From: Daphnia carinata
Taxonomy: Eukaryota > Arthropoda > Branchiopoda > Diplostraca > Daphniidae
Assembly (NCBI RefSeq): GCF_022539665.2
Contig: NC_081339.1
Location: 6,696,367-6,760,366 of the forward strand
Length of the DNA: 64,000 bases
Reading direction: 5' to 3'
This document shows positions 43,591 to 64,000 of this stretch, in pieces. Under the pieces are notes generated by a model that had not been told where the DNA came from, did not search any database, and saw nothing but the letters and a program-made list of their open reading frames with translations. Position numbers and translations under genes: made by a program. How positions within the stretch are numbered: position 1 is the stretch's first letter; each line of letters begins with the position of its first letter.

Positions 43591-44424
43591 CCACGGCATT
43601 AAATACTCACAGACGCGTGTCACATCTTGACTTTGTCGGAAGAAAAGTGTAGGGTAGAGAAACAAAATTCCGAAGGTCAACAGCAGTCAAAGGAAAAAGT
43701 TTTTATTTGCATATGGAGCTCGAGTATATGTCCATTCCCCCTCATTTAACCCAATAGATGCAATGACCTAGAAGAAGTGAATAACCTTAGGCAATTGAAA
43801 AACAAAAAATCAAAACCCCGTTTTGCATTTTCTCAGTAGCCCATTCACCTGCACGACATGCACTAGTGTAGATCCCTCGCTCTTAATTCTGGTGTAGTGA
43901 TTCACACTATTTCCACACGTGGTCCACACCAATTACGCACTTCAAAAAGCACTGGGTTTTGCCTCTGCACTGGTGTTGTTTAGTTGCACATGTCAAGCCG
44001 CATTTTGTTGGGTGGTAAGATAAGTCTAGCTAGAATAGAAAACGTAGATTAAGTTAAGGATAAGTAGGTCTAAAGTTAAGATTAAAGCTATTTTAAGTAA
44101 GGCGTAAGCGTAGTCCACTTTTGCACAACACTATCTCAGCCATTTTCTTTCCCTTTTTTATGCAATTATTTACAGTAGTCGTCGTTCGCTAACCATTTTT
44201 CTACTAACAATTGTACGTTTCGACTTGTTCACACAATTTACACATGAACCGCCAATCCAAACAACCTCCTGATCATTAATTAACGATTAATAACCAATTT
44301 CTTTTTTCAGGAATTTTTTTTGCTATGTAACTGTGATTTGTGTACCTGATGCTTCTTAGAATTAAGACGAAACTTGTTGCTGTTCAAATATTTAAAAAAC
44401 AATTTTTCGCTCCTGTACAATCAG

Positions 44425-45900
44425 GAGGGCAATCTCTGGGGTCGAAGAGGACACTGGAAAACGAGGATCGCCGTCGCAGCCATTGGAATACCGTCCAGAA
44501 TTCTGAGGTATATATTTACAAATTTAATGTCTAATCGTTTTTTTTTTTAATATGTATATAGGAGGGCCACATTCACCACCGAAGAGGACTGTTGGACAAC
44601 GAGGGTCATCGCCAGGAGCCTAGTCCAAAATTGCAAGGTATATAAAAAAAAAATTAGTGTCTTACCACGTTCTATGTATTAATCTGTGTATAGGAGGGCT
44701 GGCATACCTACCGAGGAGGTTTAGTGTACGTCGGGGATCGCCGCCGAAGTCGCCAAGGATTGCCAGGTATTACTTCATCAATTTTAAGTGGTTAATCGTG
44801 TTTGTTTTATGTATTTAGGGTGCTCCACATCACCACCGAGATGGGCCAATAGACTTCGAGGTTCGCTGTCGGAGCCACCAGGAATCGTCGCCGAAAATTG
44901 TCAAGTATTTAATTAGAAGTCTTAGATTTTGAACTAGATTTTATTTGTTTTTATGTATTTAGGAGGGCCTCACCACCATCGAAGAGGACGCTGGACATTG
45001 AGATCGCCGCTGCAGGAACTAAATTGCTGACACGGGTATAGAAGGATTTTAAAAAATACGCTTAAGTGTTTAATCATGTTTTTTTTTATGTACCTAAGAG
45101 GGCCTTACTACCACCGAAGAGGACGCTGGAGCATCGCCATCGTTGCCATTGATGTTTCAAGTATATCTTTTACACGTTTACCTGTCAAATCGTGTTTTTT
45201 AATAATACATTTACGAGGGCTCCGTCTTCGCCGAAGAGGACCACAGGACAACGAGGTTCGCCGTCGGAGCCACCAGGGTCGTCGCCCAAAATTGTCAAGT
45301 ATTTAATTAAAAGTTTTAAGTTCAACACTGATTTTATTTTGTTTTTATGTATTTAGGAGGGCTTCACGCACCATCGAAGAGGATGCTGGAGTGTCGAGAT
45401 CGGGTTTCAGGTATATCTTTTACACATTTAATTCTCTAACCATGTTTTTTTTGTCTTAGGAGGGCTTCGTCATCGCCGAACAGGATCATTGGACAACGAG
45501 GTACGTCGTCAGAGGTACCAATATTGTCGCCCAAAATTGTTGAGTATTTGATTGAAATTTTTATGTTTTACACCGTGATTTTATTTTTTTTATGTATTTA
45601 GGAGGGCCTCACACTGTAAAGCATTCTTCTTGTCGGAAGAATGACTTTACGTTACTAAGACATCGAAGTGAATAATGGAGCAACGAGGATCGCCGCTGGA
45701 GGAACGAGATCGTCGCGTTGAATGTTTGAGGTATTTGTTTACACGTATAAATGTATAACCATGTTTTTTTTATTATGTATTTAGGAGGACTCCATCATCG
45801 CTGATGAGGACCACTGGACGTCGTGGATCTTCAATGTAGCAACGGGAATCGTCGTCCAACACCGAGATTCACGCCCATTAGGTCAATGGAAAACAAAAGG
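44425..45900 (+). repeat. Tandem exon-like array, copy A (11 blocks)
   Basis: Blocks of roughly 55-130 bp mostly begin GAGGGC and end before GTAT. Spacers of about 50-60 bp run from GTATAT or GTATTTAATT to a T-rich tract and TTTAG, TATAG or similar. Nearly every block is thus flanked by AG and GT like an internal exon. Later blocks alternate between two types with distinct spacers, so the true repeat is a dimer of about 280 bp. Single blocks are open in one or more frames, but no frame stays open across the spliced series. One block (from 45602) carries a 35-bp hairpin insertion. Confidence 0.85.
45616..45650. repeat. Hairpin insertion in the exon-like array
   Basis: GTAAAG-CATTCTTC and GAAGAATG-A-CTTTAC form a stem of 14 bp with one bulge around a 6-nt loop. 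The corresponding blocks of copies B and C lack it, so it is a later insertion, possibly a tiny foldback element. Confidence 0.7.
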
Positions 45901-46656
45901 ATGGTACGGTTGAGTATTGCCTAATCGGCATTCGCTTACTTTATTCCGTATTATGTTTCGTGTGTTTTAACAAATGTGTTCCCTTCATTCTTTGTTCCTT
46001 TCCGTTATTTTCCCTTAAGCATTACGGCTTATGATTTCACAGTTCACTGAGCACTCAAATTCACTACACCTGTCCCCCATGGTTCATTCACGGTTTGTTT
46101 GCTTTTTTGCACCGGTTTGGGATTAGTGCATCAAGTAATGTAGCTCTGTTTACATTGGTTTTATGCTAAGTATTTAGTTGGTGTAGGTTTACTAACACAA
46201 ATTGCTTTTAAAATGATAGTGAGGCAAATTAAATTGATTTGGTCTATGAATTCTGTTTTCTTTTGAGTATGGACTAGTAATTTGAAAAGATATGAATAAA
46301 AAAACAATTTATCGCGTGCGATCGGGTTGCTAACCCGATTTATCAACCTGATAACTTCAAACTTGCCCCATAAACGGAATGAACAACCCGCTGAACAAAA
46401 AAGCGGGTCGCTCTATCGGGTCTGACCCTGGTAGTAGTTTTCCTCAGCTGATTAGATGTTTTGCAACGCTGTCTCAAACATGGCTGTACATGGAACTCCT
46501 CACCTCAGTTTTGTCTTTTAAATCGCAGGAAATTGTAATGCCAACCAAGAATACCGGTACATAAATGACAATTTAATGTTGGTTCTTTATATGGCATTCT
46601 GATTCTGATATGTAAAGCAGATCAGTATCCAATTTTACTGAAAGAAGTGAATATGT

Positions 46657-46660
46657 ATAT
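46657..46660. repeat. Target-site duplication of the LTR element, left
   Basis: ATAT directly before the 5' LTR matches ATAT at 49504-49507 directly after the 3' LTR. Confidence 0.7.
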
Positions 46661-46929
46661 TGTCGCGTCGGAAATATTCGATTCGTCACCGCGGTAGCGA
46701 CAACAGCGCTAGGATGGAAATCCCGCCCCAGTTATGGCCGTCCTTTGGAGCACCACCCTCGTCGCCGGATATAAAAGGGGCGACTTGGCACACCTGTGGG
46801 GGCTTTTTGATTAATTGGTTAGAGCAGTTAGTTTTGCAGTTGTGTTATGGAACCTTGTGGTGAAATACACATTATCTTTTAATCTGAAGCACGACGTCTC
46901 TATCTTGGTAAAGATCCATGGCCGTGACA
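46661..46929 (+). repeat. 5' long terminal repeat
   Basis: A 269-bp LTR starting TG and ending CA, apparently identical to 49235-49503. An internal TATAAAAGG promoter lies near 46772. The next bases (TGGTGGAGATG) begin with TGG, as expected for a tRNA primer-binding site, though the tRNA was not identified. Confidence 0.93.
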
Positions 46930-47233
46930 TGGTGGAGATGCAGGGTACCACCTGTTAGGCTGAGTAAGGTAAGCGCAATTGTTGTTCTTTTCGCACGGGT
47001 CTTGGGAAGTTTTTGAATAAGGGACTTGGAGGCAGGTGCTGTTTAGGGGTCCTTGGGAAGTGTGACCGGCCGGCTAGAAAGTGCCTTAAATTGCCGTGGT
47101 ACAGGACCACAGACCTGGCCGATTTCCTTGATTCGCTGTTAGGTTGAGACCCGTCCGAGTAAGTTGTGGAAAGCGCGTAGTGAAAGCCCGACAGGCCTAC
47201 CATTGGGTGGGAGAGAGAGACGTAGCTCGGTGG

Positions 47234-47791
47234 ATGAGTACGGATCCGCCTAGGCAGAGCAGGCGTTTACGAGGGTTAGCCGCGTCCCCGATAAGCGAGG
47301 AAGGACAGCGCAACGTTGGTCTTGACGGAAGTCAGGCGGAATCTCTAAAGAGAGTTACAGAAGTAGGGGCACGGACTGCCAAAGCGATCGGCCATACCTT
47401 TCCGAGAAGAGGAATCGTATCACTGAACCCGATCGGAAAGTCGAACGCGAGGACAAGTTCCTCAGAAGTAGGGGCACAGACTGCCAAAGCGATCGGCCAT
47501 ACCTTTCCGCGAAGAGGAATCGTATCACTGAACCCGATCGGAAAGTCGAACGCGAGGACAAGTTCCTCAGAAGTAGGGGCACAGACTGCCAAAGCGATCG
47601 GCCATACCTTTCCGAGAAGAGGAATCGTATCACTGAACCCGATCGGAAAGTCGAACGCGAGGACAAATTCCTCTTGTAGGTATCGGAAGTTTGATCAGGA
47701 AGCAAGATCGAGAGATAGTGGTGTAGGAGAACAAACGTGTATTGATCCGAGGGAGCAACGGAAGATAGCCGAAAAGCAAGGAACCTTTTAA
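47234..47791 (+). CDS. Leader ORF of the retrotransposon with three 35-aa repeats
   Basis: Open frame from an ATG at 47234 (the frame stays open back to 47144). The central part holds three tandem copies of a 35-residue unit (EVGAxTAKAIGHTFPRRGIV...), matching the 105-bp DNA repeat. The sequence is Arg-rich, with no known domain. It could be a real accessory protein or just an open stretch in the element's leader; the in-frame repeats keep it open. Confidence 0.35.
   Translation: MSTDPPRQSRRLRGLAASPISEEGQRNVGLDGSQAESLKRVTEVGARTAKAIGHTFPRRGIVSLNPIGKSNARTSSSEVGAQTAKAIGHTFPRRGIVSLNPIGKSNARTSSSEVGAQTAKAIGHTFPRRGIVSLNPIGKSNARTNSSCRYRKFDQEARSRDSGVGEQTCIDPREQRKIAEKQGTF
47360..47674 (+). repeat. Three tandem 105-bp repeats in the LTR element leader
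   Basis: Units begin at 47360, 47465 and 47570 (GAAGTAGGGGCAC...), differing at only a few bases. The period is a multiple of three. Confidence 0.95.
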
Positions 47792-47873
47792 CGAGTGCGC
47801 AAGGGAAGGAAGAGATAAGGGGTTAGACGATTTTTCTGGAGCTTTACCGCTCGTTATAGCACCAACGCTTGAA

Positions 47874-48956
47874 ATGGCCCAACGTGCGGAATTTAGAGGA
47901 AATGATGGACCTCCCGCCCGTGTACCTGCACAGGCAGGAGGAGCCGCTCAGCGTGCACCGGCTCATCCATCGCAGTATCGTGAAGTACCAGTTTTCCGCG
48001 GAGGACCAGACGATGACGCCGCTGAATGGATAGAACGTTTCGAGAGGACCGCCAATTTTAATGGATGGGGTCCCGCTGAGAAAGCGGAATACTTTGGATT
48101 ATTCGTAGAAGGCACAGCAAAGGATTGGCTAGCTTGTCAAATAGGACAGGTGGTCTGGGACGATGTTGCTCCGCGTGAAGCCGCGCCTGGGAGGGAGGCC
48201 GAAACCGGGATAAGGGGCCTACGAACGCGATTTTTAGAAACATTTCGCTCGGAGGATTTCGACCGCTATCATAAAGCTAGGCTACGTAATCGGAAGCAGG
48301 AGGCTTCGGAAACGGTCGTAGGATATTTCTATGACGTGCTCAATCAGTGCCGTAGGCTGAACCCTATGATGTCTGAAGCGAAGAAAATAGATTATCTTTT
48401 GCGTGGGCTTAATCAGCCTTTGAAGCGAGAAATGACAATTAAACAGCCCCGGACGACAGATGAATTTTTTAGAGCATTAAAAATTTATACTAGGGCATAT
48501 GAGGATTCAGAGAAGCCGCATCAGGTAGTTAATTTTATGGGACAAGCGAAGGAACCTATTCCAGCCAAGCGAGTCACGTATGCTGACTACGAAGAAAGGC
48601 GAACTCCGTTGAAACAAGAAGCCTACGAGTCCGACGCAAAGCGAGACAGCACGCGCCCAGGGTCGCATGACGAGTTAAAAAATTTAATACGCGATATGGC
48701 AGCTCGGATAGAAGAGCTGGAACGAGGGACTAAACAATTATGCCTGGGAGGGGAGAATACTTCTCGAACAGTAGACGGAAAACCAATCTGCTACCGATGT
48801 GGACGCTCCGGTCATATTGCTCGTTTTTGCGAGACCAACTCGGGTAATACGAGACCACGATCACCAACACCCGATCGGGAAGGAAGAGAGGACGAAAGGG
48901 GACCAAACGGACGTGATGGAAGCCGGCGAGAACGTGAGGACATGAGAAGAGACTGA
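47874..48956 (+). CDS. gag: Retrotransposon Gag polyprotein
   Basis: A 360-aa capsid/nucleocapsid protein that would assemble the virus-like particle and package element RNA. The N-terminus is Pro/Ala-rich, then comes a retrotransposon gag core (AAEWIERFERTANFNGW near residue 40, FVEGTAKDWLACQ near 80, FYDVLNQCRRLNP near 155, YLLRGLNQPLKREM near 180). Near residue 305 is one CCHC zinc knuckle, CYRCGRSGHIARFC (C-X2-C-X4-H-X4-C). A basic/acidic Arg-Glu-Asp tail follows to the stop. No pol frame follows. The fold matches Ty3/gypsy elements. Confidence 0.93.
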   Translation: MAQRAEFRGNDGPPARVPAQAGGAAQRAPAHPSQYREVPVFRGGPDDDAAEWIERFERTANFNGWGPAEKAEYFGLFVEGTAKDWLACQIGQVVWDDVAPREAAPGREAETGIRGLRTRFLETFRSEDFDRYHKARLRNRKQEASETVVGYFYDVLNQCRRLNPMMSEAKKIDYLLRGLNQPLKREMTIKQPRTTDEFFRALKIYTRAYEDSEKPHQVVNFMGQAKEPIPAKRVTYADYEERRTPLKQEAYESDAKRDSTRPGSHDELKNLIRDMAARIEELERGTKQLCLGGENTSRTVDGKPICYRCGRSGHIARFCETNSGNTRPRSPTPDREGREDERGPNGRDGSRREREDMRRD

Positions 48957-49222
48957 ATAGCGTGGTTGGAAAAGGACACTAACTGGCCACGCCATCTCTT
49001 GGTCGGCCGGTGAGTATTGAGGCTACGAGCGCTAGATGGGTCGGCGGCGGCCCCAACTTTTATTCATGAGAAATGCTTTTATTTACTTTATTCCCCCCTA
49101 TAAATGAAGTCAATGTCGTGTAATTCCTCTAACCCTGTAATCCCTCTACCCCGTAACACAAATATTAGATTTTAGACTTCTATTTTCCTGGCACACGAGC
49201 GCGATCGGGACGAGTCGCGACT

Positions 49223-49234
49223 TAAGGAGGGGGA
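49223..49234 (+). other. Polypurine tract
   Basis: A purine-rich run (AAGGAGGGGGA) directly before the 3' LTR, the expected plus-strand primer of reverse transcription. Confidence 0.8.
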
Positions 49235-49503
49235 TGTCGCGTCGGAAATATTCGATTCGTCACCGCGGTAGCGACAACAGCGCTAGGATGGAAATCCCGC
49301 CCCAGTTATGGCCGTCCTTTGGAGCACCACCCTCGTCGCCGGATATAAAAGGGGCGACTTGGCACACCTGTGGGGGCTTTTTGATTAATTGGTTAGAGCA
49401 GTTAGTTTTGCAGTTGTGTTATGGAACCTTGTGGTGAAATACACATTATCTTTTAATCTGAAGCACGACGTCTCTATCTTGGTAAAGATCCATGGCCGTG
49501 ACA
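49235..49503 (+). repeat. 3' long terminal repeat
   Basis: 269 bp, TG...CA ends, reads the same as the 5' LTR at 46661-46929, followed by the ATAT target-site duplication. Confidence 0.93.
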
Positions 49504-49507
49504 ATAT

Positions 49508-51600
49508 ACAGTATATATTACGTATATGAATTATCTTACATTGAAATTTTGCATAAAGGCACATTTGTTCGTCGTCATTATTAAGATTCTGGATCTTTTC
49601 GTTTACGGTTAAATTCTGTGCGCATATGACTCGCGCTGTACTAGTTAATTGCATGCAATTTAATAATTTTAATTTAATGCACTATTTAATTCATGAGTGT
49701 TAATAATAAATAATAATAATGAGTGCTGGTTAAGCACACATCCACTGAAGTTCTTGTATTTAATAACTTTGTAATAGAAAATATCGTATCTAAATTGACA
49801 ACTATCGGAAGAAGGAATATTTCGCGTTAATGTCGTTAATTCCTTTAAATGATATGGAAATATGATGTGATATGTATTGTAACAAATGCCGCAATAGTAA
49901 AACGTTTTGCCCGAGAAGTTAAAAGTCTGAGGTTCGAATCCGAGGAAAATACCTCTGGATTGTATTTCTTTATATATCAAAACATTCCCTTTGAGAGGCA
50001 TAGACAAATAGGCCACATGGTTCATGATTTCTTTGTCATATACATTTAGATAAGAAGAAAATATCTTTCAGTAAATTTTTCTAAGTCGAGAAGTAGTCCC
50101 CAAAAAACTAAGGACTGCTAGTTGAGGTAGAGCATCGGATCATCATGTCGAAGACATGATGTTCGACTCCCATAAAAGTGGTAGAAGGTGAAGAATTTAC
50201 AATTAATTTAAGTAATTTAATATTGCAATTGTAAATAGATTAAAATGATGGTCTTGCATTAAGTTGAGTTGAAAGTGTGGGTGAAGGACTGATTTTTGTA
50301 TCGTCATGCGAAGCTATTAGCAATGGTGTTGGGTGTCAGAATCACTGACGTTATTTCCCAGACTTTCATTGCCTTCCAAAATCGTCTGCTAGACGAAACT
50401 CGATTCGCGAAAATGCTGAAGTATCTTTCATTGTTACTCCTGTTGAAGTCGAGGCGAATAGCTGAAACACACGTATCATTTCATCTCTTTTTTGCCTCAT
50501 CATTGTATGGAAACTAGGTCGGTAACCCTTTTGTTTTGCGTTTTTGCGTTTTGTTAAAACTTTACAATGTCATTTTCAAGTGAGGTTTTTATTTGTTTTT
50601 AGGTAGCTGTACAGACATGTAAAGACTGGTGGTTGCAGGTCATGAAACACAATTCCTTTATACAATACCTTTCCATTTTTATTGCTTTAATTTTTTTCAT
50701 TTTAGCCGCTGAATGAAGCTGGAACAGAACAGATTGGAATTTTAGTGTCACAACATCTGGCTGGCTGGACGATGAAACATCCCTCTGTGGACACAGACGT
50801 TGCGTCAGGTTTTTATCCGTAGATTCTTCCTGGGATAATAACTTTGCAACCAACACTGTGACTTTGATAGCTAGCAGTTGAGTAGCCTTTCAATTCCAAA
50901 CAAAAGAAGTCATGGTAATTGTATGTTTTGTATACATTTCTGTATAAACTATCACTTATCTAGATTACTCAATTGACATGACACTTTGTATGGCTGGTCC
51001 GGGAGTAATGCTGTTCGAAGTATCATGTGTTAGTACAGGCTGACAAGAATCACAAACACATTGTAAACTATAATACGGTAAGAAAATACCTTGGAATTGG
51101 AAGAAATGGCAATTTTTATTATATAATTTATTATATTTATAACAGGTGTGTAAAAACCATTTTCTAGCCCATTTATCTATTTTTAGCCTGTTTATTATAT
51201 TTATACAATATCATACCATTTTTATTGTATAATTTTTGTCTGTTTAGCCGCCGAATGGAGCTGGAACAGGAGAGATATGAATTGTAACAGTAAGACATGA
51301 TTGGCTGGACGTTTCAACGTTTCTGTGAGATTATAGACTTATTTAGTTATATAAATCATATAGATTAATTTAAAGATTGAAAAAGGAGTTATATTATTAT
51401 GGTAGGATAATTTTGTTTTTGTACCAACTGACGAGAATAACAAAATTTTGTATAACTTATTATGCACCCATGGCAAAATTTTGTAAATTATTGATTGTCA
51501 TTCAGTGAAAAGGTTGGATTAGCATATAGATAGAGATAGATATAATGACATACAGATAAATAAGTTAATAGTTATTCCAAGTCAGAACAGGTAAATAATC
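49508..51600. other. AT-rich DNA with tRNA-like pieces and a diverged repeat pair
   Basis: No protein gene. Box-B-like GAGGTTCGAATCC lies near 49930, and a tRNA-like sequence at 50110-50180. A diverged direct repeat (AGCCGCYGAATGRAGCTGGAACAG, then GGCTGGACG) lies at about 50704-50775 and 51246-51315. Confidence 0.5.
50110..50180 (+). pseudogene. tRNA-like sequence
   Basis: D-arm and A-box-like GGTAGAGCATCGG and B-box-like GTTCGACTCC are in tRNA spacing. The anticodon region is replaced by a perfect 9-bp hairpin, CATCATGTC-GAA-GACATGATG (50141-50161). It cannot be a normal tRNA. Confidence 0.45.
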
Positions 51601-52169
51601 AAGTAATTGCAGTATTTGTTTTTTAATGGTATTTTGCAGGTACAAGTCTCACATACATATTTCAACTGTATTGATAAAATATTCAATGCTTAATAATTTT
51701 ACTTCCATTTAATAACAGGTTAGTAATGTGAAATTTTTTACATGGTAACATGATAAATACCAAAAGTGAAGAAATCTAGAAGTCACAAGGAACATAAAGT
51801 TAGGTACTATAAATTTTTCAACTTCTACAACTATTTTCAATTTCTCATATAATGCAGTTTGAAAAACGGTCCGAGTAAACACTTCAGCACCCTCTCACAC
51901 ACGGACTGGAAAATGGTCGTTTCCTAAAGAAATGGAATACTATTGGTAAGAGTTTGATTTAATTATGATTTAGTTGGCTAACATAGACTTAGAACTAATT
52001 TAATCGAAGTTGATATGCTCATACTTTCTACAACTAAAGAAGACACAGAAGCTATTTAGCATAAATTCAATTTACCTGACACGCGAATCGATCGACCATG
52101 GTGTTATAGTTGAGGTACTTTTGTAGAGGCAAGACTATGTACGAATGTGATTACCCAGCGTCTAGATGA

Positions 52170-54900
52170 CGCCTTAAATACTCGCAGACACGTGTCACAT
52201 TATTGCTTTCTCGGAAGTAGAGTGTAGGGTAGAGGGACCTAATTCTGAAGGTCGATAGGTTGAAGGGCAAATTTTTATTTTCAGGTGAGCCCGAGGTTAT
52301 AGCCATTCCCCATCGATTTATCCTACGTTACTTTAATTTTTTTTTTGTTACCAAGGCCCTAAAACAGATGAAGAACCTCGGGCATTCACAAAAAGGAGGG
52401 GGGAGAGGAAGAAAAAAAAGAATCAAGCAGCTCAGTAGCTCTTTCACCTGCACGCGGTGCACTAGTGTAGATTTGTTGCTTGCACTCCTCATCTAATTAT
52501 TCTTAGAATGTTCGCACATGCACCCAGCTTTCGCAATTAGTAGATTAATCAATTACGCACAAATAACGCACTACACCAGCACAGGGTTTTATTAGTTGGG
52601 TAGTACGATAAGTCTAGATGAAATAGGTAAACGTAGATTAAGTTAAGGATAAGTAGGTCTAGAGTTAAGAGTAAGGCCACTTTAAGTAAGGCGTAAGCGT
52701 AGTCCACCTCAATTCGTTACCTTTGCACAACACTATCTCAGCCATTTTCTTTCACTGTTTTATGCCACTATTAATTCAAACAACCTCCTGATCATTAACT
52801 AACGATTAATTACCAATTTCTTTTTCCAGGAAATTTTTATTCAATGTAACTGTAATTTGTGTACCTCATCCTGTTAGAATTAAGATGAAACTTATTGCTG
52901 TTCAAATATTCAAAAAAAAAATTGGTTTTTTCTCGTTTCTGTACAATCAGGCGGGTAATCCTGATCTCTGGGGCTGAAGAGGACACTGGACAACCAGAGT
53001 CGCCGTTGCAGCCACTGGAATATCACCCAGGATTTTGAGGTATATATTCAAAAATTTAGTATCTCAACATGTTTTTTCGGTTTGTTTTAATAATTTATGT
53101 ATCTAGGAAGGCTACATCTCCACCGAAGAGGACCGTTGGTCAACGAGCGTTATCGCCAGGATCTTCGCCCAAAATTCCAAAGTATTTAAGAAATTTAAGT
53201 GCCTCACCATGTTTAATATATTAATCTGTGTATAGGGGGAAGGCAACACCACCGAGGAGGACTACAGGACGTTGGGGGTCGCCGCTGCAGTCGCCAAGGA
53301 TTGCCAGGTATCACTTTAACAATTTTCAGTGTTTAATCGTGTTCATTTATGTATGTAGGATGGTTAGATCACCACCGAGGTGGGTCACTAGACAACAAGG
53401 TTCGCTGTCGGAACCACCAGGAATCGTCGCCCAAAATTGTCAAGTATTTAGTTGAAAGTATTAGGTTATGAATTATGTTTTTTTTTTTTTTTTTGATGTA
53501 TTTAGGAGGGCAGGACCACCATCGAAGAGGATGCTGGGCGTCGAGGATCGCCGCTGTAGCAACGAGATTGTCGGCATAGGTATTGAGGGTTTTTTAAAAG
53601 TAAGTCTAAGTATTTAATCGTGTTCTTTTCTCTGTATCTAAGAGGGCCTCACCATCACCGAAGAGGGCGCTGGAGTACCGATATCGACGCCGTGGATGTT
53701 TCAGGTATATCATTTACTCGTTTAATTGTCGATTCATATTTTTTTTAATGTATTTAAGAGGGCTTCATCTTCGCCGTCGGAGCTACAAGGATTGTCGCCC
53801 AATATTGCCAAGTATTTAATTATAAATTTTAAGTTTTATACCCACTAACTTATTTTGTTTTTTATGTATTTAGGAGGGCGCAATCATCGCCGAAGACGAT
53901 CACTGGCCAACGTGGTTCGCCGTAGAAGTCACCAGTATCGTCGGCTAAAATCGTCAAGTATTTAATTCAAAGTCTTATGTTTTACACCTTGATCTTATTT
54001 TGTTTTATGTATTTAAGGTGGGCCGCACCATCATCGAAGAGGATGCCGGACATTGAGGGTCGTTGCTGGAGGAACGACATTGTCCGCAATGGAGGTTTTA
54101 GGTAATTTCTTTACATGTTTATTTGTCTAACCATTTTTAAAAAATGTATTTAGGAGGGTTCCGTCGTCGCCGAAGAGGACTACTGAATGTCGTGGATCGT
54201 CGTTGGAGCAACGGGAATCTCCGCCCATCCCCGAGCTACACGCCCATTAGGTCGATGGAGGAAAAAAGATGGTACGGTTGAGTATTGCCTATTGGCATTT
54301 TTCTACTTTATTCCGCGTTATTCGTGTATGGTAGAAACTGTTGCTCTTGTCATTTATTCCTTCCCGTTATTTTCCCTTAAACATTACGGCGTACGGTTTA
54401 ACTTTCACCGAGGACGCAAATTCACTACACCTATAGACCACGGTTCGTTCACGGTTTGTTTGCGTTTTTGCACGGTTTGTTTGCGTTTTTTACACGGTTT
54501 GGGATTAGTGGATCGGGTAATGTAGTTCTTCTTTCATTGGTTTCATGCCAAGTATTTAGTTGGTGCAGGTTTACTAACACTTGCTACTTCTAAAATAAAA
54601 AGTAAAACAAATTAAATATATTTTATGTCTGCATGCTCTTTTTTGAGTATGGTTTCGTGACCACTGTAATACAGGAATAAATTAATAATCGCGTGCGGTC
54701 TGGTTGCTAACCCCGATTTGACAACCCGATAAAAACGTGATGGGGCAGTAACCCTTCTAACCTGCCCCATAGACAAGAATAAATAATTCGCTGAACAACA
54801 AACCGGTTCGAGCGAAACGGGTTTGTTGGGCTCATTGGCCCTACAGTTTTTCTCAACGGATTTGGAGGTATTGCAACGCTGTCTTTTTTGAGTTTTCGTC
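52170..54900 (+). repeat. Exon-array repeat unit, copy B (left palindrome arm)
   Basis: Same order as copy A. It starts with TTAAATACTCGCAGACACGTGTCACAT-like sequence (52177), a probable TATA-like element plus a GACACGTGTC palindrome. A consensus donor CAG|GTGAGC follows at 52285, then the GGATAAGTAGGTCTA segment, the array, and the CACGGTTTGTTTGC tail. Confidence 0.85.
52951..54270 (+). repeat. Tandem exon-like array, copy B (10 blocks)
   Basis: Ten blocks with acceptor-like starts near 52951, 53107, 53235, 53358, 53506, 53641, 53757, 53873, 54016 and 54152, each followed by a GTAT donor-like start of a 50-60 bp spacer. The same two block types alternate as in copy A. A block-type frame such as EGRTTIEEDAGRRGSPL ends in a stop here but stays open in copy C. 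Confidence 0.85.
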
Positions 54901-55927
54901 TACATGCAAGATACGTTTGTTTTTTTCCCCTACAAACTGACTAGAATAACAAAGTTGTTGAATTAACTGGAGATGAGTATGTAGGAAAGTGAGATATGAC
55001 GTCGTGGATTAAAAATTAACACTCAGCGAAAAAAGATATTATTAGCAAATTATGAGGAATTGCAATTCATAAAATTTTTTACCGATTGGGTTTTATTTAA
55101 TACACCACCCCACGGAAAAGGAAATAATACCGCATAATAATATGAATAATTGATGTAAAATATAAAGCACTTTTAATGATCGGGTAATTGGTTAAAAAGT
55201 CGTTTATGGGTGTTGTAAGAAAAAATATGGCAACTAAATGTTACTTTACTTGTGATATAATAATAGTAATTGATATAATAGTCAGCAGTTGAATCAGTTC
55301 ACTATTTAATAATCAAACTTGTTTAAAAGAAATTTATGTAAATTAAAAGCAGGCAGTTACCTGCTCGATAAATTATGAAAAATAATAAAATTGTAACAGA
55401 GTCAAACATAGCTGCACATACACCTAAGCAAACAAATATAAATGATGTGTTTGACAAATACATGTAGCCGCAGTTCAAAACAAAAACAAATTTAACAGAC
55501 TAATATTTAAATGATGGGGGCGACATCATTAAAAAGGAAATTGTGAAAAGCAACTCTAACATTCCTTTGTAGACTAACAGTGAAATTTGTGAAAAAAACT
55601 GAGTGGCAAAAACTTGTAAATTTCATTGTCCTTGTTCATTTTGTTGGTTTTTTCGTTAAATGTAATGATATTAATATTTGTATTAGTAATTATTTTGTTC
55701 ACGATTATGATGAGCGAAAGAAATGTATGTATTTATTTAATACCGTTTATATTGTGATTTACCACCATGTAGATTAGAAGAAACGACTTACGTTTAATTT
55801 GCTTTCTTTATTTTTAATAACTGGGAAACATTGACAATCATTTGACATATACTCATTTTATTACAACTGAAACACAGACACAATTAACACTACACACAAA
55901 CACACACATACACCTGTTGAATATGTA

Positions 55928-55997
55928 GTAACTATGGAGTATCGAACCCTAATTTTCGGCGTATCTTGCCGATGCTCAACCATTGAGCTATAGTCAC
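55928..55997 (-). tRNA. Degenerate tRNA-like gene (left mirror)
   Basis: 70 nt. The acceptor stem GTGACTA pairs fully with TAGTTAC (one G-T), the D arm is GCTC...GAGC, the anticodon stem TCGGC/GCCGA surrounds loop AAGATAC, and the T arm holds GGTTCGATACT. The anticodon would be GAT (Ile), but position 33 is A instead of U, so a functional tRNA is unlikely. Mirror partner at 57936-58005. Confidence 0.4.
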
Positions 55998-56089
55998 TTA
56001 CAAACAAATGTATTATACCTTGAGTCAACGCACGAACATATTGTCTAGTTAATATTATAATCTTGCTATACTATTGGTCAGTCTGACCT

Positions 56090-56790
56090 GTTATTGTTTA
56101 TGTATCATGGCATATTTGTAGAGGATCCGGCTATGATGTCGGAAGACAGAGGTTCAAACCCAGTAGGGAATAAAAGTATAAAAAGCTTTAAATATTCTAT
56201 CACATATTTTACTGTTACTCATATTTCTGAAAACGTGTAAAAGATGACGGGTCGCTGTACCATTTGTTAGTCTGACCATAGAATTTACAAGTGTTGTAGC
56301 TTATGTGTAGAGAGTCCAGCTCCGGTATCAAAAGAATGTGGTTCAAATCTTACGGATTGGTAAAGCTTTCTGCAAGCATGAAATCCATACATTTATGTTT
56401 ATTATATTACATTTATTGAATGCGTAATAGGTTGTCTAAAGATCACTTGCAAAAATGGTTGTCAATGTAATGTAACTCATAGCTCAATGGTAGAGCATCG
56501 GCTTCGTAAGCCAAGTGATTAGGGATCGGTCCCCAAAAGAGTTCAACCATAAAATGAATGATTCAAAAACAATATATACGATATAGTATCATCAAAGGTT
56601 TCTAAAATTGTAAAAGGTATGCAACAATCCCAAATGTAGAAGCCATGATATTGCAATATATATGCAGCAATCTAATTGCAAAAACTATTAAAAATTTTCC
56701 TTTCTGCACAATGGACATAGCTGAATTGCGTGGGTTCAAATCCCATATAACTATGTCGATGCTCTACCATTGAGATACTTGTGACGCTTC
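56090..56790. repeat. Cluster of tRNA-like remnants, left of the palindrome axis
   Basis: Besides the element at 56474, B-box-like stretches occur near 56150 (AGAGGTTCAAACCC), 56338 (GTGGTTCAAATCT) and 56735 (GGGTTCAAATCCC), each preceded at about 40-50 bp by an A-box-like segment. The one near 56735 faces a reverse A-box (GATGCTCTACCATTGAG). Confidence 0.5.
56474..56543 (+). tRNA. tRNA-Thr(CGT)-like sequence
   Basis: 70 nt. Acceptor AACTCAT against AAGAGTT (one mismatch), D arm GCTCAATGGTAGAGC, anticodon stem TCGGC/GCCAA with loop TTCGTAA (anticodon CGT), weak T arm (GGATCGGTCC). Mismatches in the anticodon and T stems suggest a pseudogene. Mirror copy at 57390-57460. Confidence 0.45.
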
Positions 56791-56861
56791 AGGAAAGTTT
56801 AAGTCTTTAACACTTGCGTTACGTAACAGTGCGCGCAAGTCAATAGAAAACCTTATCCCAA

Positions 56862-57075
56862 TGGGGGGATATAGGGGGGCAGATGCCAGAAACGCAAAGC
56901 GTCCGCTCCCCAACTCGAAGGTTCCTGGGTTCGATTCTCAGTTAGGTCTCCGCTTCCACAGGCTTCCTACCTTCCCAGGTGTCACGATTCCACGTGGCCG
57001 CTCTAGTTGGGTAACTTCGTGCGAAGCACGTGAACGGATATTTTACAAAAACTTAATCTCAAAAAAAAAAAAAAT
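56862..57075 (+). mobile_element. tRNA-derived SINE
   Basis: Starts with a tRNA-like head (GGGGGGCAGATGCCAGAAACG, then GGTTCCTGGGTTCGATTCTCA, a B box). A non-tRNA body follows with the inverted CTTCGTGCGAAGCACG, then an A-rich 3' tail with a 14-base A run. It lies at the palindrome axis and has no mirror copy, so it probably inserted into the spacer. Target-site duplications were not clear. Confidence 0.6.
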
Positions 57076-57389
57076 TCCAATAAATATATGTTACTCTTTA
57101 TTGAGTATACAGAAACTTTATAATATACATTTGATATTAACCGTAGCCATCACAGATGATAATAAATGAATATATATTATATTTATTGTAATTATTATTT
57201 ATTTGTTTTTCAAACAAATCGATATACAGATTTATAAACCATATCGAATATTTACATTCATATATTTAGAATTTTAGTTAGTATCTTGGTTTCTACTATT
57301 GGGAGTGTTGCATAGCATTTGCAATATTAGAAACTTTTGATGATAATACATGGAATATTTTGTTCATTTGAAACAGATTTATATGTCTG

Positions 57390-57460
57390 AACTCTATCGG
57401 TGATCGATACCTCTACAATCGACTTACGAAGCCGGTGCTCTACCATTGAGCCATTAGTTA
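57390..57460 (-). tRNA. tRNA-Thr(CGT)-like sequence (right mirror)
   Basis: Inverse copy of 56474-56543: D arm GCTCAATGGTAGAGC, loop TTCGTAA, acceptor AACTAAT/ATAGAGTT. It has diverged in the anticodon and T stems, so it is likely non-functional. Confidence 0.4.
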
Positions 57461-57935
57461 CATATCACTGATAACCATTTTTGCAAGTAATCTTTAGACA
57501 ATCTATTGCACAATTTCAATGAAAATAAATTTTTAATAGAACTGTATGAAGTGCACTTATTTTAAGCAGTGTGTGAGATTTGAAACCCGGTCTTCTAACA
57601 CCGTAGCCGGACTCTCTACACACAACCTATACAACTTGTGAATTGTATGGTCAAACTATCTATTGTTATAGCGAACCGTCATCTTTTACACATTTTCAAA
57701 AAAATGAGTAACAGTAAAAATATATGTATGTTATTTTCAAATTCCAACGTGTTTGACATTAGTAGCACCCATTGGATTTGAACCTCTGTCGTCTCACACC
57801 ATAGCTGGACCCTCTACAGATGTACTATGATACATGTACAATTTTTGGTCAGACTGAAATAGTATAGCAAGATTAAAGTATTAACTATACAATATGTTCG
57901 TGCGTTGATTCAATGTATAAAACAATGATATGTAA

Positions 57936-58005
57936 GTGACTGTAGCTCAAGGGATGAGCATCGGCAACCGACTCCGAAGATCAGGGTTCGATACCCCATA
58001 GTTGC
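57936..58005 (+). tRNA. Degenerate tRNA-like gene (right mirror)
   Basis: Inverse copy of 55928-55997. GTGACTG start, D arm GCTC...GAGC, T arm AGGGTTCGATACCCC well paired. The anticodon stem is imperfect (TCGGC/TCCGA) with loop AACCGAC (CCG). Confidence 0.4.
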
Positions 58006-58999
58006 TGAAAGTTCAACGAGTGTATATGTGTGTTTATGTGTAGTGTTAATTGTATCTGTGTTTCAGTTGAAATAAAATGTGTCAATGTAATATGATCGTG
58101 TCAATGTTTCAGTTATTGAAAATAAAGAAAATTAATGAATTAAACATAATTCGGTTCTTCAAATCTATACAATATTGGATCACAATATAAACGGTATTAA
58201 ATAAGTACATACAATACTTACACTTATCAAAATCGTGTACAAGGTAAATACTAAAACAAATTATATCATTAAACTTAACGACGAAAACAACAAAGTGAAT
58301 AAATACAATGAAATTTACAAGTTTATCCCACTCAGTTTTTCATGAATTTCACTATTAGTCCACAAAGGAATGTTAGAGTTGCTTTTTACAACTTGCTTTT
58401 TGACGATGCCGGCCGCATCATTTAAATATTAGTCTGTTACAATTTTTGTTTGCTTTGAGCTTCGTCTACATGAATCTGACAAATACATATCATTTATACT
58501 TATTAACTTAACAGGTGCGTGTGGCCGTGTGCAAACATGTTTAACACTGTTACAATTTTATTATTCTTCATAATTTATCGAGCAGGTAACTGTTTTTAAT
58601 TTACTCTTTTTTGCCAAATTTGAATACATTTATTTTTAATAACATAAATCTTTTTTAAAAATAAGTTTGATTATCAAATACTGAATTGATTCAACTAATA
58701 ACTGTTATACCATAACCGAAGTAACATTTAATTACTATGGTTTTTCGTACAACACCCAAAAACGACTTTTTAATCAAGTACCCATTCATTAGAAGTGCTT
58801 TATATTTTACATCAATTATTTTTATTATTTTCCGTGGGGTGGTTTATTAAATAAAACCCAATCGGTAAGAAATATTTTATAAATTTCAATTCCTCATAAT
58901 TTGCTCCTAATATCTTTTTTCGCTGAGCATTAATTTTTAAGTCACGACGACATGTCTCACTTTCCCACATACACATTTCCAGTTAATTGAACAACTTTG

Positions 59000-61900
59000 T
59001 TATTCTTGTCAGTTTGTAGGATATATCTTGCATATAGACGAAAACTCAAAAAAGACAGCGTTGCAATACCTCCAAATCCGTTGAGAAAAACTGTAGGGCC
59101 AATGAGCCCAACAAACCCGTTTCGCTCGAACCGGTTTGTTGTTCAGCGAATTATTTATTCTTGTCTATGGGGCAGGTTAGAAGGGTTACTGCCCCATCAC
59201 GTTTTTATCGGGTTGTCAAATCGGGGTTAGCAACCAGACCGCACGCGATTATTAATTTATTCCTGTATTACAGTGGTCACGAAACCATACTCAAAAAAGA
59301 GCATGCAGACATAAAATATATTTAATTTGTTTTACTTTTTATTTTAGAAGTAGCAAGTGTTAGTAAACCTGCACCAACTAAATACTTGGCATAAAACCAA
59401 TGAAAGAAGAACTACATTACCCGATCCACTAATCCCAAACCGTGTAAAAACGCAAACAAACCGTGCAAAAACGCAAACAAACCGTGAACGAACCGTGGTC
59501 TATAGGTGTAGTGAATTTGCGTCCTCGGTGAAAGTTAAACCGTACGCCGTAATGTTTAAGGGAAAATAACGGGAAGGAATAAATGACAAGAGCAACAGTT
59601 TCTACCATACACGAATAACGCGGAATAAAGTAGAAAAATGCCAATAGGCAATACTCAACCGTACCATCTTTTTTCCTCCATCGACCTAATGGGCGTGTAG
59701 CTCGGGGATGGGCGGAGATTCCCGTTGCTCCAACGACGATCCACGACATTCAGTAGTCCTCTTCGGCGACGACGGAACCCTCCTAAATACATTTTTTAAA
59801 AAATGGTTAGACAAATAAACATGTAAAGAAATTACCTAAAACCTCCATTGCGGACAATGTCGTTCCTCCAGCAACGACCCTCAATGTCCGGCATCCTCTT
59901 CGATGATGGTGCGGCCCACCTTAAATACATAAAACAAAATAAGATCAAGGTGTAAAACATAAAACTTTGAATTAAATACTTGACGATTTTAGCCGACGAT
60001 ACTGGTGACTTCTACGGCGAACCACGTTGGCCAGTGATCGTCTTCGGCGATGATTGCACCCTCCTAAATACATAAAAAACAAAATAAGTTAGTGGGTATA
60101 AAACTTAAAATTTATAATTAAATACTTGGCAATATTGGGCGACAATCCTTGTAGCTCCGACGGCGAAGATGAAGCCCTCTTAAATACATAAAAAAAAATA
60201 TGAATCGACAATTAAACGAGTAAATGATATACCTGAAACATCCACGGCGTCGATATCGGTACTCCAGCGCCCTCTTCGGTGATGGTGAGGCCCTCTTAGA
60301 TACAGAGAAAAGAACACGATTTAACACTTAGACTTACTTTTACAAAACCCTCAATACCTTTGCCGACAATCTCGTTGCTGCAGCGTCGATCCTCGATACC
60401 CAGCATCCTCTTCGATGGTGGTCCTGCCCTCCTAAATACATAAAAAACAAAATAAAATAATGGTCTATAACTTACAACTTTCAATTAAATGCTTGATAAT
60501 TTTGGGCGATAATCCTGGTGGATCCGACGACGAACCACGTGGTCCAGTGGTCCCTCTTTGGCGATGATGGCGTCCTCCTAAACAAATAAAAAACAATAAT
60601 TAATGGTGAATGAATTAATGGTAAAAATACTCAATGTAATACTTGACAATTTTAGGCGACGATCCTGATGCCTCGGACGGCAATTTTCGTTGTCCAGTTG
60701 CCCTCTTCGGTGGTGATGTTGGCCATCCTAAATACACAAAATAAAACACGGTTACACGTAGACGTACAAATCATTTACCTGAAACATCCATTATGACGAT
60801 CTTGTTACTCCAGCGGCGATCCTCGATGTCCAGCATCCTCTTCGATGGTGGTGAGGCCCTCCTAAATACATAAGAACAAAATAAAACCATAATTCACAAC
60901 CTAATACTTTCAACTAAATACTTGACAATTTTGACCGGTGGCTCCAACAGCGAGCCTCGTTGTCTAGTGGTCCTCTTCGGTGGTGATCTAATCATCTTAC
61001 ATACATAAACGAACACGATTAAACACTTAAAATTGTTAAAGTGATACCTCGCAATCCTTGGCGACGGCGGCGGCGGCGATCCCCAACGTCCTGTAGTCCT
61101 CCTCGGTGGTGTTGCCTGCCCCCTATACACAGATTAACATATTAAACATGGTAAGGCACTTAAATTTTTTAAATACTTTGGAATTTTGGACTAACATCCT
61201 GGCGATAACCCTCGCTGTCCAACGGTCCTCTTCGATGGAGATGTGGCCTTCCTAGATACATAAATTATTAAAACAAACCGAAAAAACATGGTGAGATACT
61301 AAATTTTTGAATATATACCTCAAAATCATGGACGATATTCCAGTGGCTGCGACGGCAATTCTCGTTGTCCAGTGTCCTCTTCGACCCCAGAGCCCCAGAG
61401 ATCAGGATTACCCTCCTGATTGTACAGAAACGAAAAAAACCAAAAAACAGCAATAAGTTTCATCTTAATTCTAACAGGATGAGGTACACAAATTACAGTT
61501 ACATTGAATAAAAATTTCCTGGAAAAAGAAATTGGTAATTAATCGTTAGTTAATGATCAGGAGGTTGTTTGGATTAATAGTGGCATAAAACAGTGAAAGA
61601 AAATGGCGAAATGGAGATAGTGTTGTGCAAAAGTAACGAACTGATGCGAACTACGCTTACGCTTTACTTAAAGTGGCCTTACTCTTAACTCTAGACCTAC
61701 TTATCCTTAACTTGATCTACGTTTACCTATTTCATCTAGACTTATCGTACTACCCAACTAATAAAACCCTGTGCTGATGTAGTGCGTTATTAGTGCGTAG
61801 TTGACGAATCTACTAATTGCGAAAGTTGGGTGCACGTGCGAACGTCCTAAAACTAATTAGATGGGGAGTGCAAGCAACAAATCTACACTAGTGCACCGCG

Positions 61901-62190
61901 TGCAGGTGAAAGAGCTACTGAGCTGCTAGATTCTTTTTTTTCTTCCTCTCCCCCCTCCTTTTTTGTGAATGCCCGAGGTTCTTCATCTGTTTTAGGGCCT
62001 TGGTAACAAAAAAAAAATTAAAGTAACGTAGGATAAATCGATGGGGAATGGCTATAACCTCGGGCTCACCTGGAAATAAAAATTTGCCCTTCAACCTATC
62101 GACCTTCAGAATTAGGTCCCTCTACCCTACACTCTACTTCCGAGAAAGCAATGTGACACGTGTCTGCGAGTATTTAAGGCGGTAGACGAC
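59000..62190 (-). repeat. Exon-array repeat unit, copy C (right palindrome arm)
   Basis: Inverse complement of copy B, read from about 62190 down to 59000. The TTAAATACTCGCAGACACGTGTCACAT-like start is at 62150-62180, the donor-like CAG|GTGAGC near 62075, the array at 61415-59669, and the tail near 59.4 kb. Confidence 0.85.
59669..61415 (-). repeat. Tandem exon-like array, copy C (13 blocks)
   Basis: Thirteen blocks on the minus strand, with acceptor-like starts near 61415, 61250, 61122, 60990, 60857, 60726, 60575, 60430, 60294, 60175, 60060, 59919 and 59779. The three extra blocks relative to copy B include another alternating pair. Sequence identity to copy B is high in blocks and spacers alike. 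Confidence 0.85.
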
Positions 62191-62211
62191 GCTAAATATT
62201 CACTTTCGTAA

Positions 62212-62274
62212 AATGTCCTTCCTCTACAAATACACTACAATTCTTAACACCATCGTCATTCGATTAGCCTATCA
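62212..62274 (+). other. Outward-facing exon-like ORF at palindrome edge
   Basis: ATG at 62212 opens MSFLYKYTTILNTIVIRLAY and runs into a consensus donor (CAG|GTAAGT) at 62275. About 160 bp further, TTTTTAG|GAAACGACG and then a GTAGGTG donor-like site mark another small exon-like block. The left arm has the inverse counterpart (near 52.1 and 51.9 kb) but with a different reading, so coding is doubtful. Confidence 0.25.
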
Positions 62275-62760
62275 GGTAAGTTGAAGTTATGCTAACTAGC
62301 TTCATTGTCTCCCTTAATTGTGGAAACTAAGAGGTTATTTCAACTTCGTAATTTATTAGCTCTAAATCTATGTTAGCATACTAATCCATAATTTAATCAA
62401 ACTGTTACCAATAGTACTCCATTGCTTTTTAGGAAACGACGATTATTCAATCCTTGTTCGGGTAGGTGCTGAAGTGTTAACTCTAAGTCTCTTTCAAACT
62501 GCATTGAAAGAGGAACGAAATTGTTAAATTCCATTAATTATTTAAAATATTTATAGTACCATACTATAGGTTCGCTGATTCTCATAGGTTTTCACACTGC
62601 TGGTATTCATCACGTAATCATCTACTTTAATTCACATTACAGACCTGCTATTCCTGAAAGTAAATAGAAATTATTATGCATCGACAACCTTTTCAATACA
62701 GTTCAAGTATGTGAGTGTAATTCTTGTACCTGCAGAACACCATAAAAAAATTTCTCCGTG

Positions 62761-64000
62761 CATCTAAATCTGCTTGATATTTCAACTGTTCTAACTCTGA
62801 ATAATTTTCAAATAATTTTATGTTTAACATATACTTTGTCACACGCCAAATTGTCCTGATCTCTTTAAACACAAGCAAAGTTAGATCTTTAACTTATAAG
62901 GCATCAATAAAAGTGGATGAAACTTGGTAAAAAAAACCTTAAATTAACACAAACAAATAAAAAAACATTAAATGTGTCAAATTAATTAAATTTAATGACA
63001 ACTTCTTAATAATATCCATGCAAATTAAATAACGCTTTGTCCAGGAAAGTAGATCAAAAGCTAAAGTAAAGATTGAAAAATGGAATTGTTACAAGTTCAT
63101 GGCAATTACAATGGCAAACACCCTAAAATATAGAGAAAGATATAAAGAAAGTTTCTTATCCCTACCTTTCTTAAGCTTTCAGTGATTGTATGCACCTTTG
63201 CTTTTCTTGCGTAACTGTTTTCTACAACCATGTCGCTCCAACATTTACCAAACCGATCGCTTCCCGTGGTTAGCTACTTCTTTAAATGCATGAAATACCA
63301 ACATAAACTTTTCTTTCGTTACTAAACGTTCACAACATTAAATGTTACACGTTCAGCAAATTAAAAACAAGATAAATTTCGAGAATAAAACACGTTATCA
63401 TTGTTAGAAATCGACGAATAAATTATCTGTACCTGTCTGAGGCAAAACTACAGGTGAGATTAACGTCGACGACGGCCACGATCATCCCCTAGTTAGAAGT
63501 ACTGCGATCGACGAATGTCAAAGCGGATGGGGATGCCAACGCTGCTCCGGTTAACAGTGTTGCAAAACAGCGCCAGCAAATAACCGAGTCATTCCCGGTA
63601 CACTGCCATCAATCTGAAGATATTCTGCAACGGTTTCCAGTAGGAAACTACATAAGATACGCTAAGATGTGTTCCATTTCAACGGGAAACACATATTTAG
63701 ACTTGAGGAGGTGGTTTCTTCATTCTCGTATAAAAACCGTGTATGAAGAACTTGGGAATTCGAGGTCCACATGAGAAATCGACAGATAAAGACGAACGTA
63801 TAAGACAAACGTGAAAAACCTTGCCACACTTCAACGCTTAATAAAGGTGTTTCACTACAATGATAAAAATGATACTTAAGTATATGCTGTCTTCTCAATT
63901 TTTCCCGGAAGTTTTGCCCTTTAAGTTTGGCCAATACAAGTTCTTCTCATAGAACTGGATCACGACTTGCGGGCAAAGTTTGTTAGCTAGGCTTGATGGA
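62761..64000. other. AT-rich flank
   Basis: No gene that I can support. A short open stretch near 63650-63770 lacks any recognised motif. Confidence 0.4.

Follow-up and report, generated by a model that had tools for sequence, protein, structure and literature searches.

What kind of gene, if any, is built of a long series of short exon-like blocks and equally short intron-like spacers? The question is raised by a stretch of the Daphnia carinata genome, positions 6696367-6760366 of contig NC_081339.1 (here C9), whose 64,000 nucleotides (nt) are referred to as the window and which carries three arrays of such blocks. An earlier note on this DNA had taken the arrays for a spliced noncoding RNA gene or a formerly coding gene, amplified from a two-exon unit and contained, start region included, in a duplicated unit. 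A conserved start region, the lack of a maintained reading frame and a tendency to slow change at splice dinucleotides lend partial support to the general proposal, whereas a clean two-exon amplification found no support. It is suggested here, with as much doubt as belief, that each array is one copy of a multicopy gene whose transcript is intron-rich, spliced and noncoding, and that the family is kept in palindromes. The palindrome, the copy number, the conserved 5' region and the tRNA-like genes of the palindrome centres are additions to the earlier note.

Arrays of exon-like blocks

The block boundaries of the three window arrays were placed by hand, and each array is supported by its boundaries and by the chain test described below.

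44425-45913, forward strand: array 1, 11 exon-like blocks and 10 spacers of 49-62 nt
52951-54281, forward strand: array 2, 10 exon-like blocks
61415-59655, reverse strand: array 3, 13 exon-like blocks, in the right arm of a palindrome

The block numbers and positions are those first described. Most blocks were said to end before GTAT, and GTAT indeed adjoins the 3' end of 30 of the 34, with GTAA in three and a GT changed to GC in one. The description of the starts as mostly GAGGGC after an AG holds for the AG, which is flush with the block in 25 of 34, and is too loose for GAGGGC, which opens 16 blocks in exact form. The T-rich, intron-like spacers, put at 50-60 bp, measure 49-67 nt. The chain test needs no trained model and counts consecutive T-rich spacers of 46-69 nt that run from GTAT or GTAA to AG, with 50 dinucleotide shuffles per array for comparison. 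Arrays 1, 2 and 3 give chains of 10, 8 and 12 spacers against at most three in the shuffles, and their reverse strands give none; five further arrays give chains of 5-11 against at most four, with 0-1 on the reverse strand.

Across the genome 26 arrays were segmented automatically, a procedure that misses some blocks (for example two of the 11 in array 1). The resulting 269 blocks have a median length of 82 nt, and 225 of the 243 spacers are no longer than 85 nt (median 56, interquartile range 53-60). The blocks are GC-richer than the spacers (55.2% against 21.8% GC), and the latter contain 52% T. The branch-point motif YTRAY occurs in 119 of the 225 spacers and is not counted as evidence. Two kinds of block end recur, ..TTGTCAA and ..TTTCAG. 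Strict alternation of two block types, on which the proposed two-exon amplification depended, is not borne out: similarity between blocks two apart exceeds that between neighbours only in array 1 (0.67 against 0.64), and falls below it in arrays 2 (0.60 against 0.63) and 3 (0.65 against 0.67).

Satellite DNA was considered as an origin and rejected. Its near-identical head-to-tail units are not seen, mean identity between blocks being 0.60-0.73, and with Tandem Repeats Finder a 21-nt pair at 45676-45716 was detected but nothing that repeats at the block period. A short inverted repeat around TTGTCG (45616-45650) in the 129-nt block 10 of array 1 looks like a small insertion.

Reading frames

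Protein coding was assessed by splicing with three-frame translation, by the sizes of insertions and deletions (indels), by rates of change at each offset and by the ratio of nonsynonymous to synonymous change (pN/pS). Among the copies listed, most have stops in every frame once spliced, and the open frame through the spliced exons that would mark a tandem-exon protein gene is not found. Indels were counted in 17 array pairs aligned both ways, pairs that are not independent of one another. Within blocks, 65 indels are of length 1 modulo 3, 18 of length 2 and 18 are multiples of three, so that 83 of 101 break the frame; the corresponding counts for spacers are 72, 39 and 31, with 111 of 142 not multiples of three. 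Blocks have fewer indels than spacers (0.007 against 0.020 of sites), and in 15 of the 26 arrays changes per column are alike in the two (0.79 in blocks against 0.82 in spacers, p=0.53). In the same 15 arrays the per-block rates by offset share no third-position peak. The per-frame dN/dS check proposed in the earlier note was run as pN/pS, which ranges from 0.32 to 2.38 by block and frame in two sets of nine arrays and favours no frame consistently.

The spliced array-1 frame has no protein relative at E<=0.1 among 10 candidates and a 147-amino-acid (aa) read-through open reading frame (ORF) has none at E<=0.01 among 20. No ORF of at least 120 aa with a usual start codon lies within 49000-64000, and for seven ORFs of at least 100 aa at three other loci Pfam gives nothing above the cut-off. 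On the strength of stops, frame-breaking indels, the lack of a third-position peak and the lack of a consistent pN/pS frame, protein coding was rejected as what the family does at present, and the observation that no single frame stays open through the series is reinforced by indel sizes and pN/pS. It is concluded that no protein is at present maintained by the family, which may have coded in the past or may still code in a minority of copies.

Change at splice sites

Change at splice dinucleotides tends to fall below expectation, with moderate statistics. In 15 arrays their change is 0.353 against a base-matched expectation of 0.773, or 46% (46 columns, p=0.0003), in a test that fixes the sites in one copy and so carries a reference-copy bias. 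A controlled version uses only columns in which the reference copy has the consensus base. In clade I (10 arrays) it gives a ratio of 0.50 for all splice dinucleotides (p=0.027), with 0.59 for donors alone (p=0.14) and 0.40 for acceptors alone (p=0.051). In clade II (nine arrays, two references) the donors stand at 0.62 and 0.46 (p=0.085 and 0.028). Averaged over blocks, donor positions +1 and +2 have relative rates of 0.52 and 0.24, against 1.0-1.4 at +6 to +10.

Within the blocks, GAAGAGG-type motifs change at 0.67 (p=0.058), 0.70 (p=0.011) and 0.52 (p=0.0001) of expectation in the controlled tests. Of 84 frequent block 7-mers GAAGAGG occurs most often (18 times), at a relative rate of 0.56. 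GAAGAGGA resembles an SR-protein enhancer.

Layout of the unit

Each array lies in a larger unit, whose parts were placed by alignment of copies unless stated otherwise.

43593-44353, forward strand: 5' region of array 1, with a TATA-like TTAAATA and a first-intron acceptor, without the exon-1 donor GTGAGC
52167-52877, forward strand: 5' region of array 2, supported by the 5' alignment and by change per taxon
about 52167, after 52284 and before 52830, forward strand: signals of the array 2 5' region read by eye, namely a TATA-like box, a donor CAG|GTGAG, and a T-tract with a CAG acceptor
61476-62187 (limits approximate), reverse strand: 5' region of array 3, from the palindrome and the 5' alignment
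54228-54302, forward strand: conserved end of the last block of array 2, then GTATTGCC
54560-54890, forward strand: 3' region common to other copies, with inverted repeats

The 5' alignment comprises 16 copies of the sequence upstream of the array. The copies that reach far enough (A1, A2, A3 and C3c) contain TTAAATAC. A possible exon-1 donor, GTGAGC, is present in 12 of the 16, and about 545 nt past it stands a T-tract with an AG acceptor, which, judged by eye, C2b and C9e have lost or have at a shifted place. In many copies an ATG follows a conserved TTAAG shortly before the array. Exact matches to two patterns from the 5' region are absent from viral and prokaryote contigs, as expected for animal sequence. 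Averaged over 18 copies, change per taxon amounts to 0.064 in 52203-52877 and to 0.093 in the array, with individual bins at 0.044-0.107 in the 5' region and 0.057-0.131 in the array. Change exceeds 0.2 beyond 54828, and the unit is therefore set at approximately 52130-54830 (about 2.7 kb). In conserved order it comprises the 5' region and its TATA-like box, a long putative first intron, the array and a conserved end; the start region attributed to the unit is thus borne out by alignment of the copies.

Folding of single sequences of the 3' region is somewhat better than that of their shuffled versions (z -1.9 and -2.4). Antisense to this region are ORFs of 95-109 aa that look alike, at 54612-54899 (reverse strand) and 59038-59325 (forward strand) in the window and at 2960-3289 (reverse strand) in locus L009, the last of which has no Pfam match.

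Palindromes and the family across the genome

Arrays 2 and 3, treated in the earlier note as separate, are the inverted arms of a single palindrome, delimited by self-alignment.

51558-62818, no strand: whole palindrome, 11.3 kb
51558-56650 and 57282-62818, inverted: palindrome arms
55927-55997, reverse strand: tRNA gene or tRNA-like sequence in the centre, 43.3 bits
56474-56544, forward strand: tRNA-like sequence, 26.8 bits, below the gathering score
57936-58006, forward strand: tRNA-like sequence, 26.6 bits, below the gathering score

The main alignments of the arms are 79% and 87% identical, with stretches inside 53480-54913 and its partner at 98-100% and other long stretches at 80-99%. Array 1 has no inverted partner within the window.

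The genome (108 Mb, 106 contigs) was searched with several queries. With 40 of 116 first-look candidates scored, the array query gives at least 115 matches, which group into at least 40 distinct array loci and supply the copy count that the earlier note had called for; the upstream flank gives 81 matches, the palindrome centre 215, and the 5' region 41 rows representing 40 copies, two rows being parts of one copy. The 5'-region copies on C4, C45 and C65 have no array match among the matches listed. Copies on different contigs share an exon-length series (83/82, 76, 73, 82, ..., 84, 73, 83, 85, ..., 126). Of the 40 5'-region copies, 28 form 14 inward-facing pairs spaced 9.2-13.7 kb apart. Among neighbours no more than 20 kb apart, forward is followed by reverse 14 times, two forward copies succeed each other twice and reverse is never followed by forward; none of 20000 strand shuffles reached 14 inward-facing pairs. 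Inverted arms were found in the window and in nine further loci tested.

Both arrays were compared in 10 facing pairs, eight of which gave an alignment of at least 1100 nt, with identities of 100, 99.9, 99.6, 97.6, 96.0, 91.0, 81.0 and 74.4%; the A2/A3 and C3c pairs gave none of that length. Arrays from different palindromes are mostly 69-93% alike, the exceptions being two neighbouring C9 copies (98.7%) and C1 against one C3 arm (94.7%). The high arm identities suggest recent conversion, recent birth or an assembly effect, and the low ones suggest that a palindrome can persist for long. The tree places one C3b arm closer to the C1 copy than to its own partner and assigns the two C9d arms to different clades.

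ARAGORN detects tRNA-like genes in nine of the 12 centres examined (the window, L009, L016, L018, L019, L021, L023, L027 and L028) and no tRNA in the centres of L011, L013-L015 and L024. Beyond the window the Rfam search covered four loci, and L009, L018, L019 and L027 have five, three, three and two tRNAs at or above the gathering score. The window has one such tRNA and no other Rfam match at that score. In the centre of the C7 palindrome (L011 6095-6683) lies a simple-sequence array translating as HIPYPIS/GIWDMGY repeats. At C6 0.07-2.5 Mb and at C4 6.26 and 6.49 Mb there are many centre matches with no nearby array among the matches listed, some of them on opposite strands a few kb apart.

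Some copies lie close to TTAGG repeats. Among the matches listed, five of 11 TTAGG clusters are within 20 kb of a family match, against 2% of the genome (binomial 1.3e-6), where the 20-kb limit was chosen after the data were seen and matches from several queries, centre-only ones included, were pooled. The TTAGG arrays in C4 and C9 are internal to the contigs; C5 and C47 have such arrays too. Those at C4 4.796-4.802 Mb and C9 5.968-5.972 Mb are of kilobase scale, with family copies on both sides, and are either telomere repeats in an interstitial position or the result of assembly joins. No TTAGG array is present in the nine contig ends and the one internal piece that were sampled.

Other features of the window

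Between arrays 1 and 2 lies a long terminal repeat (LTR) element (46661-49503), which looks like a young non-autonomous insertion. Its 269-bp LTRs are 100% identical, and it contains a gag ORF (47874-48956) with Pfam matches slightly below the cut-off and no other ORF of at least 120 aa with a usual start from there to the 3' LTR. Elsewhere two ORFs (9751-10251 and 12574-13008) have C1q domains, tandem repeats of 189 bp form three blocks of 2-4 copies each within 1063-3209, and a GC-rich stretch (32000-36000, 49-53%) contains ORFs, one of them CCCH zinc-finger-like and below the Pfam cut-off. The C1q domains, like the TTAGG arrays, are compatible with an arthropod. A candidate 60-nt intron at 685-744 in an ordinary ORF resembles the array spacers; the frame is also open through it, so it is not counted as evidence.

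Possible explanations

As proposed here, the promoter-like 5' region would drive an RNA through the array, from which 10-13 small introns would be removed to leave a product that codes for nothing. In the unit of about 2.7 kb a long first intron would be followed by 10-13 mini-exons and these by a conserved 3' end, and many units would occur as two facing copies in a palindrome of 10-14 kb, usually with tRNA-like genes in its centre. The near-identical arms of some palindromes probably reflect arm-to-arm gene conversion. Selection would act on transcription and splicing, through donor sites and enhancer-like block motifs, and not on a protein; any function might reside in the RNA or in the act of splicing. 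The facing copies permit convergent transcription, and read-through would yield a long hairpin RNA.

A number of observations weigh against this proposal. AG is not exactly at the boundary in nine of the 34 window blocks, standing one base later in eight and being lost at block 7 of array 1, and the donors read GTAT, which differs from the usual GTRAG. The possible exon-1 donor is kept in no more than 12 of the 16 aligned copies and is absent from array 1. For clade II the acceptor ratios of 1.06 and 1.11 indicate no slowing, and all splice dinucleotides combined come only to 0.85 and 0.78 (p 0.23 and 0.15). Block-averaged acceptor positions -2 and -1 have relative rates of 0.99 and 0.56, so that the A of AG is hardly slowed. 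A signal at donor +3 to +6 (p=0.004, 15 arrays) is gone once controlled (0.93-1.15 in either clade), and the 7-mers ATCGAAG, CGCCCAA and CAAAATT are slower than GAAGAGG (0.42-0.44). The p values of the splice tests rest on related copies. A conserved RNA structure in the 3' region was rejected, the alignment of 16 giving seven pairs with no compensatory change or covariation. Certain copies also retain open frames: the copy at C9:7236985 has a frame with one stop over 13 blocks, a six-block part at C9:7040773 has a frame without a stop, and one frame of array 1 is open over four blocks and part of a fifth. The shifted or lost acceptors and the six-block open frame make the noncoding reading slightly weaker and a coding origin slightly stronger.

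The main rival is accordingly a decayed coding family, that is, a many-exon repeat gene that formerly coded, or in a few copies still codes, and that spread in palindromes and now consists mostly of pseudogenes with leftover splice sites. Besides the open frames just listed, the ATG after TTAAG just upstream of many arrays and the presence in clade I of at least one stop-free frame in nine of 12 blocks across nine copies favour this origin, which is held to be rather less likely than the noncoding reading. Its difficulties are that block indels break the frame much as spacer indels do, that pN/pS singles out no frame, that blocks are no slower than spacers and that protein relatives were missing from the searches above. 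The variable block number and the scarcity of stops in more than one frame could alternatively belong to a hyper-variable protein gene that still codes by frame-shifting alternative splicing; with no frame of reduced pN/pS across blocks, and stops in every frame of most of the spliced copies listed, this is highly improbable. The arrays might also belong to a palindromic, foldback-type non-autonomous mobile element or to a telomere-linked repeat, the order of AG and GT being a useless by-product of an old tandem array. The at least 40 array loci with their 14 facing pairs, the arms of up to 100% identity and the TTAGG clusters near family matches would suit such an origin. It is nevertheless considered unlikely, given the lack of long ORFs in 49000-64000 and of Pfam matches at the three other loci, the slower splice dinucleotides and 5' region, and the C9d arms in different clades, which are unlike a clean insertion of a whole element.

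Comparison with known systems

A literature search of titles and beginnings of abstracts found no description of this layout, which does not exclude that one exists. Facing gene copies are known from the amplicon palindromes of sex chromosomes, which the family resembles in its facing copies and in arms of up to 100% identity over the array; it differs in its small units, its spread over many contigs and its apparent lack of a protein. Long inverted arms with internal tandem blocks are likewise shared with foldback and long terminal-inverted-repeat DNA transposons. Unlike these, the family has a conserved promoter-like region and splice features, and no transposase was found in the window or in the seven ORFs of three other loci, although non-autonomous elements lack one anyway.

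Multi-exon intergenic long noncoding RNA (lncRNA) genes are alike in their GC-rich exons and little exon conservation, and their slow splice-related sites have a partial parallel in the arrays (PMC4245815, PMC4338330); in human long intergenic noncoding RNAs (lincRNAs) constraint is described there as mostly splice-related (PMC4245815). The same source notes that the pattern of constraint at exon ends is absent in Drosophila, and the analogy therefore calls for caution in an arthropod (PMC4245815). In contrast to lncRNA genes the exons of the arrays repeat each other and occur in dozens of copies, often facing in palindromes. If the blocks are spliced, the genome contains dozens of copies of a gene whose introns and splice signals outlast any message of the exons, and these would allow a direct test of whether splicing as such is under selection, as has been asked for human lincRNAs (PMC4245815). 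Because of their tRNA-like centres, and because some copies lie close to TTAGG arrays, the palindromes are also candidates for chromosome-domain elements.

In the centromeres of fission yeast inverted arms surround a centre with tRNA genes, an arrangement that the palindromes with tRNA-like centres resemble. The dg/dh repeats found there are alike as repeats with an intron-bearing noncoding RNA, introns being putative in the arrays, and the intron of dg RNA and its splice sites are described as promoting methylation of histone H3 lysine 9 (PMC5322907). Unlike dg/dh, the arrays would have 10-13 short introns, and three of the 12 centres have no detected tRNA. The layout recalls the dg/dh system as a likeness of layout only. 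On this analogy it may be speculated, as a quite unlikely extension, that the family is an independent animal counterpart of the intron-bearing heterochromatic repeats of yeast, in which tRNA-centred palindromes with convergent intron-rich noncoding genes would load the splicing machinery, and thereby factors of RNA interference or chromatin, at domains bearing telomere repeats or otherwise special, with selection keeping the splicing and not its product.

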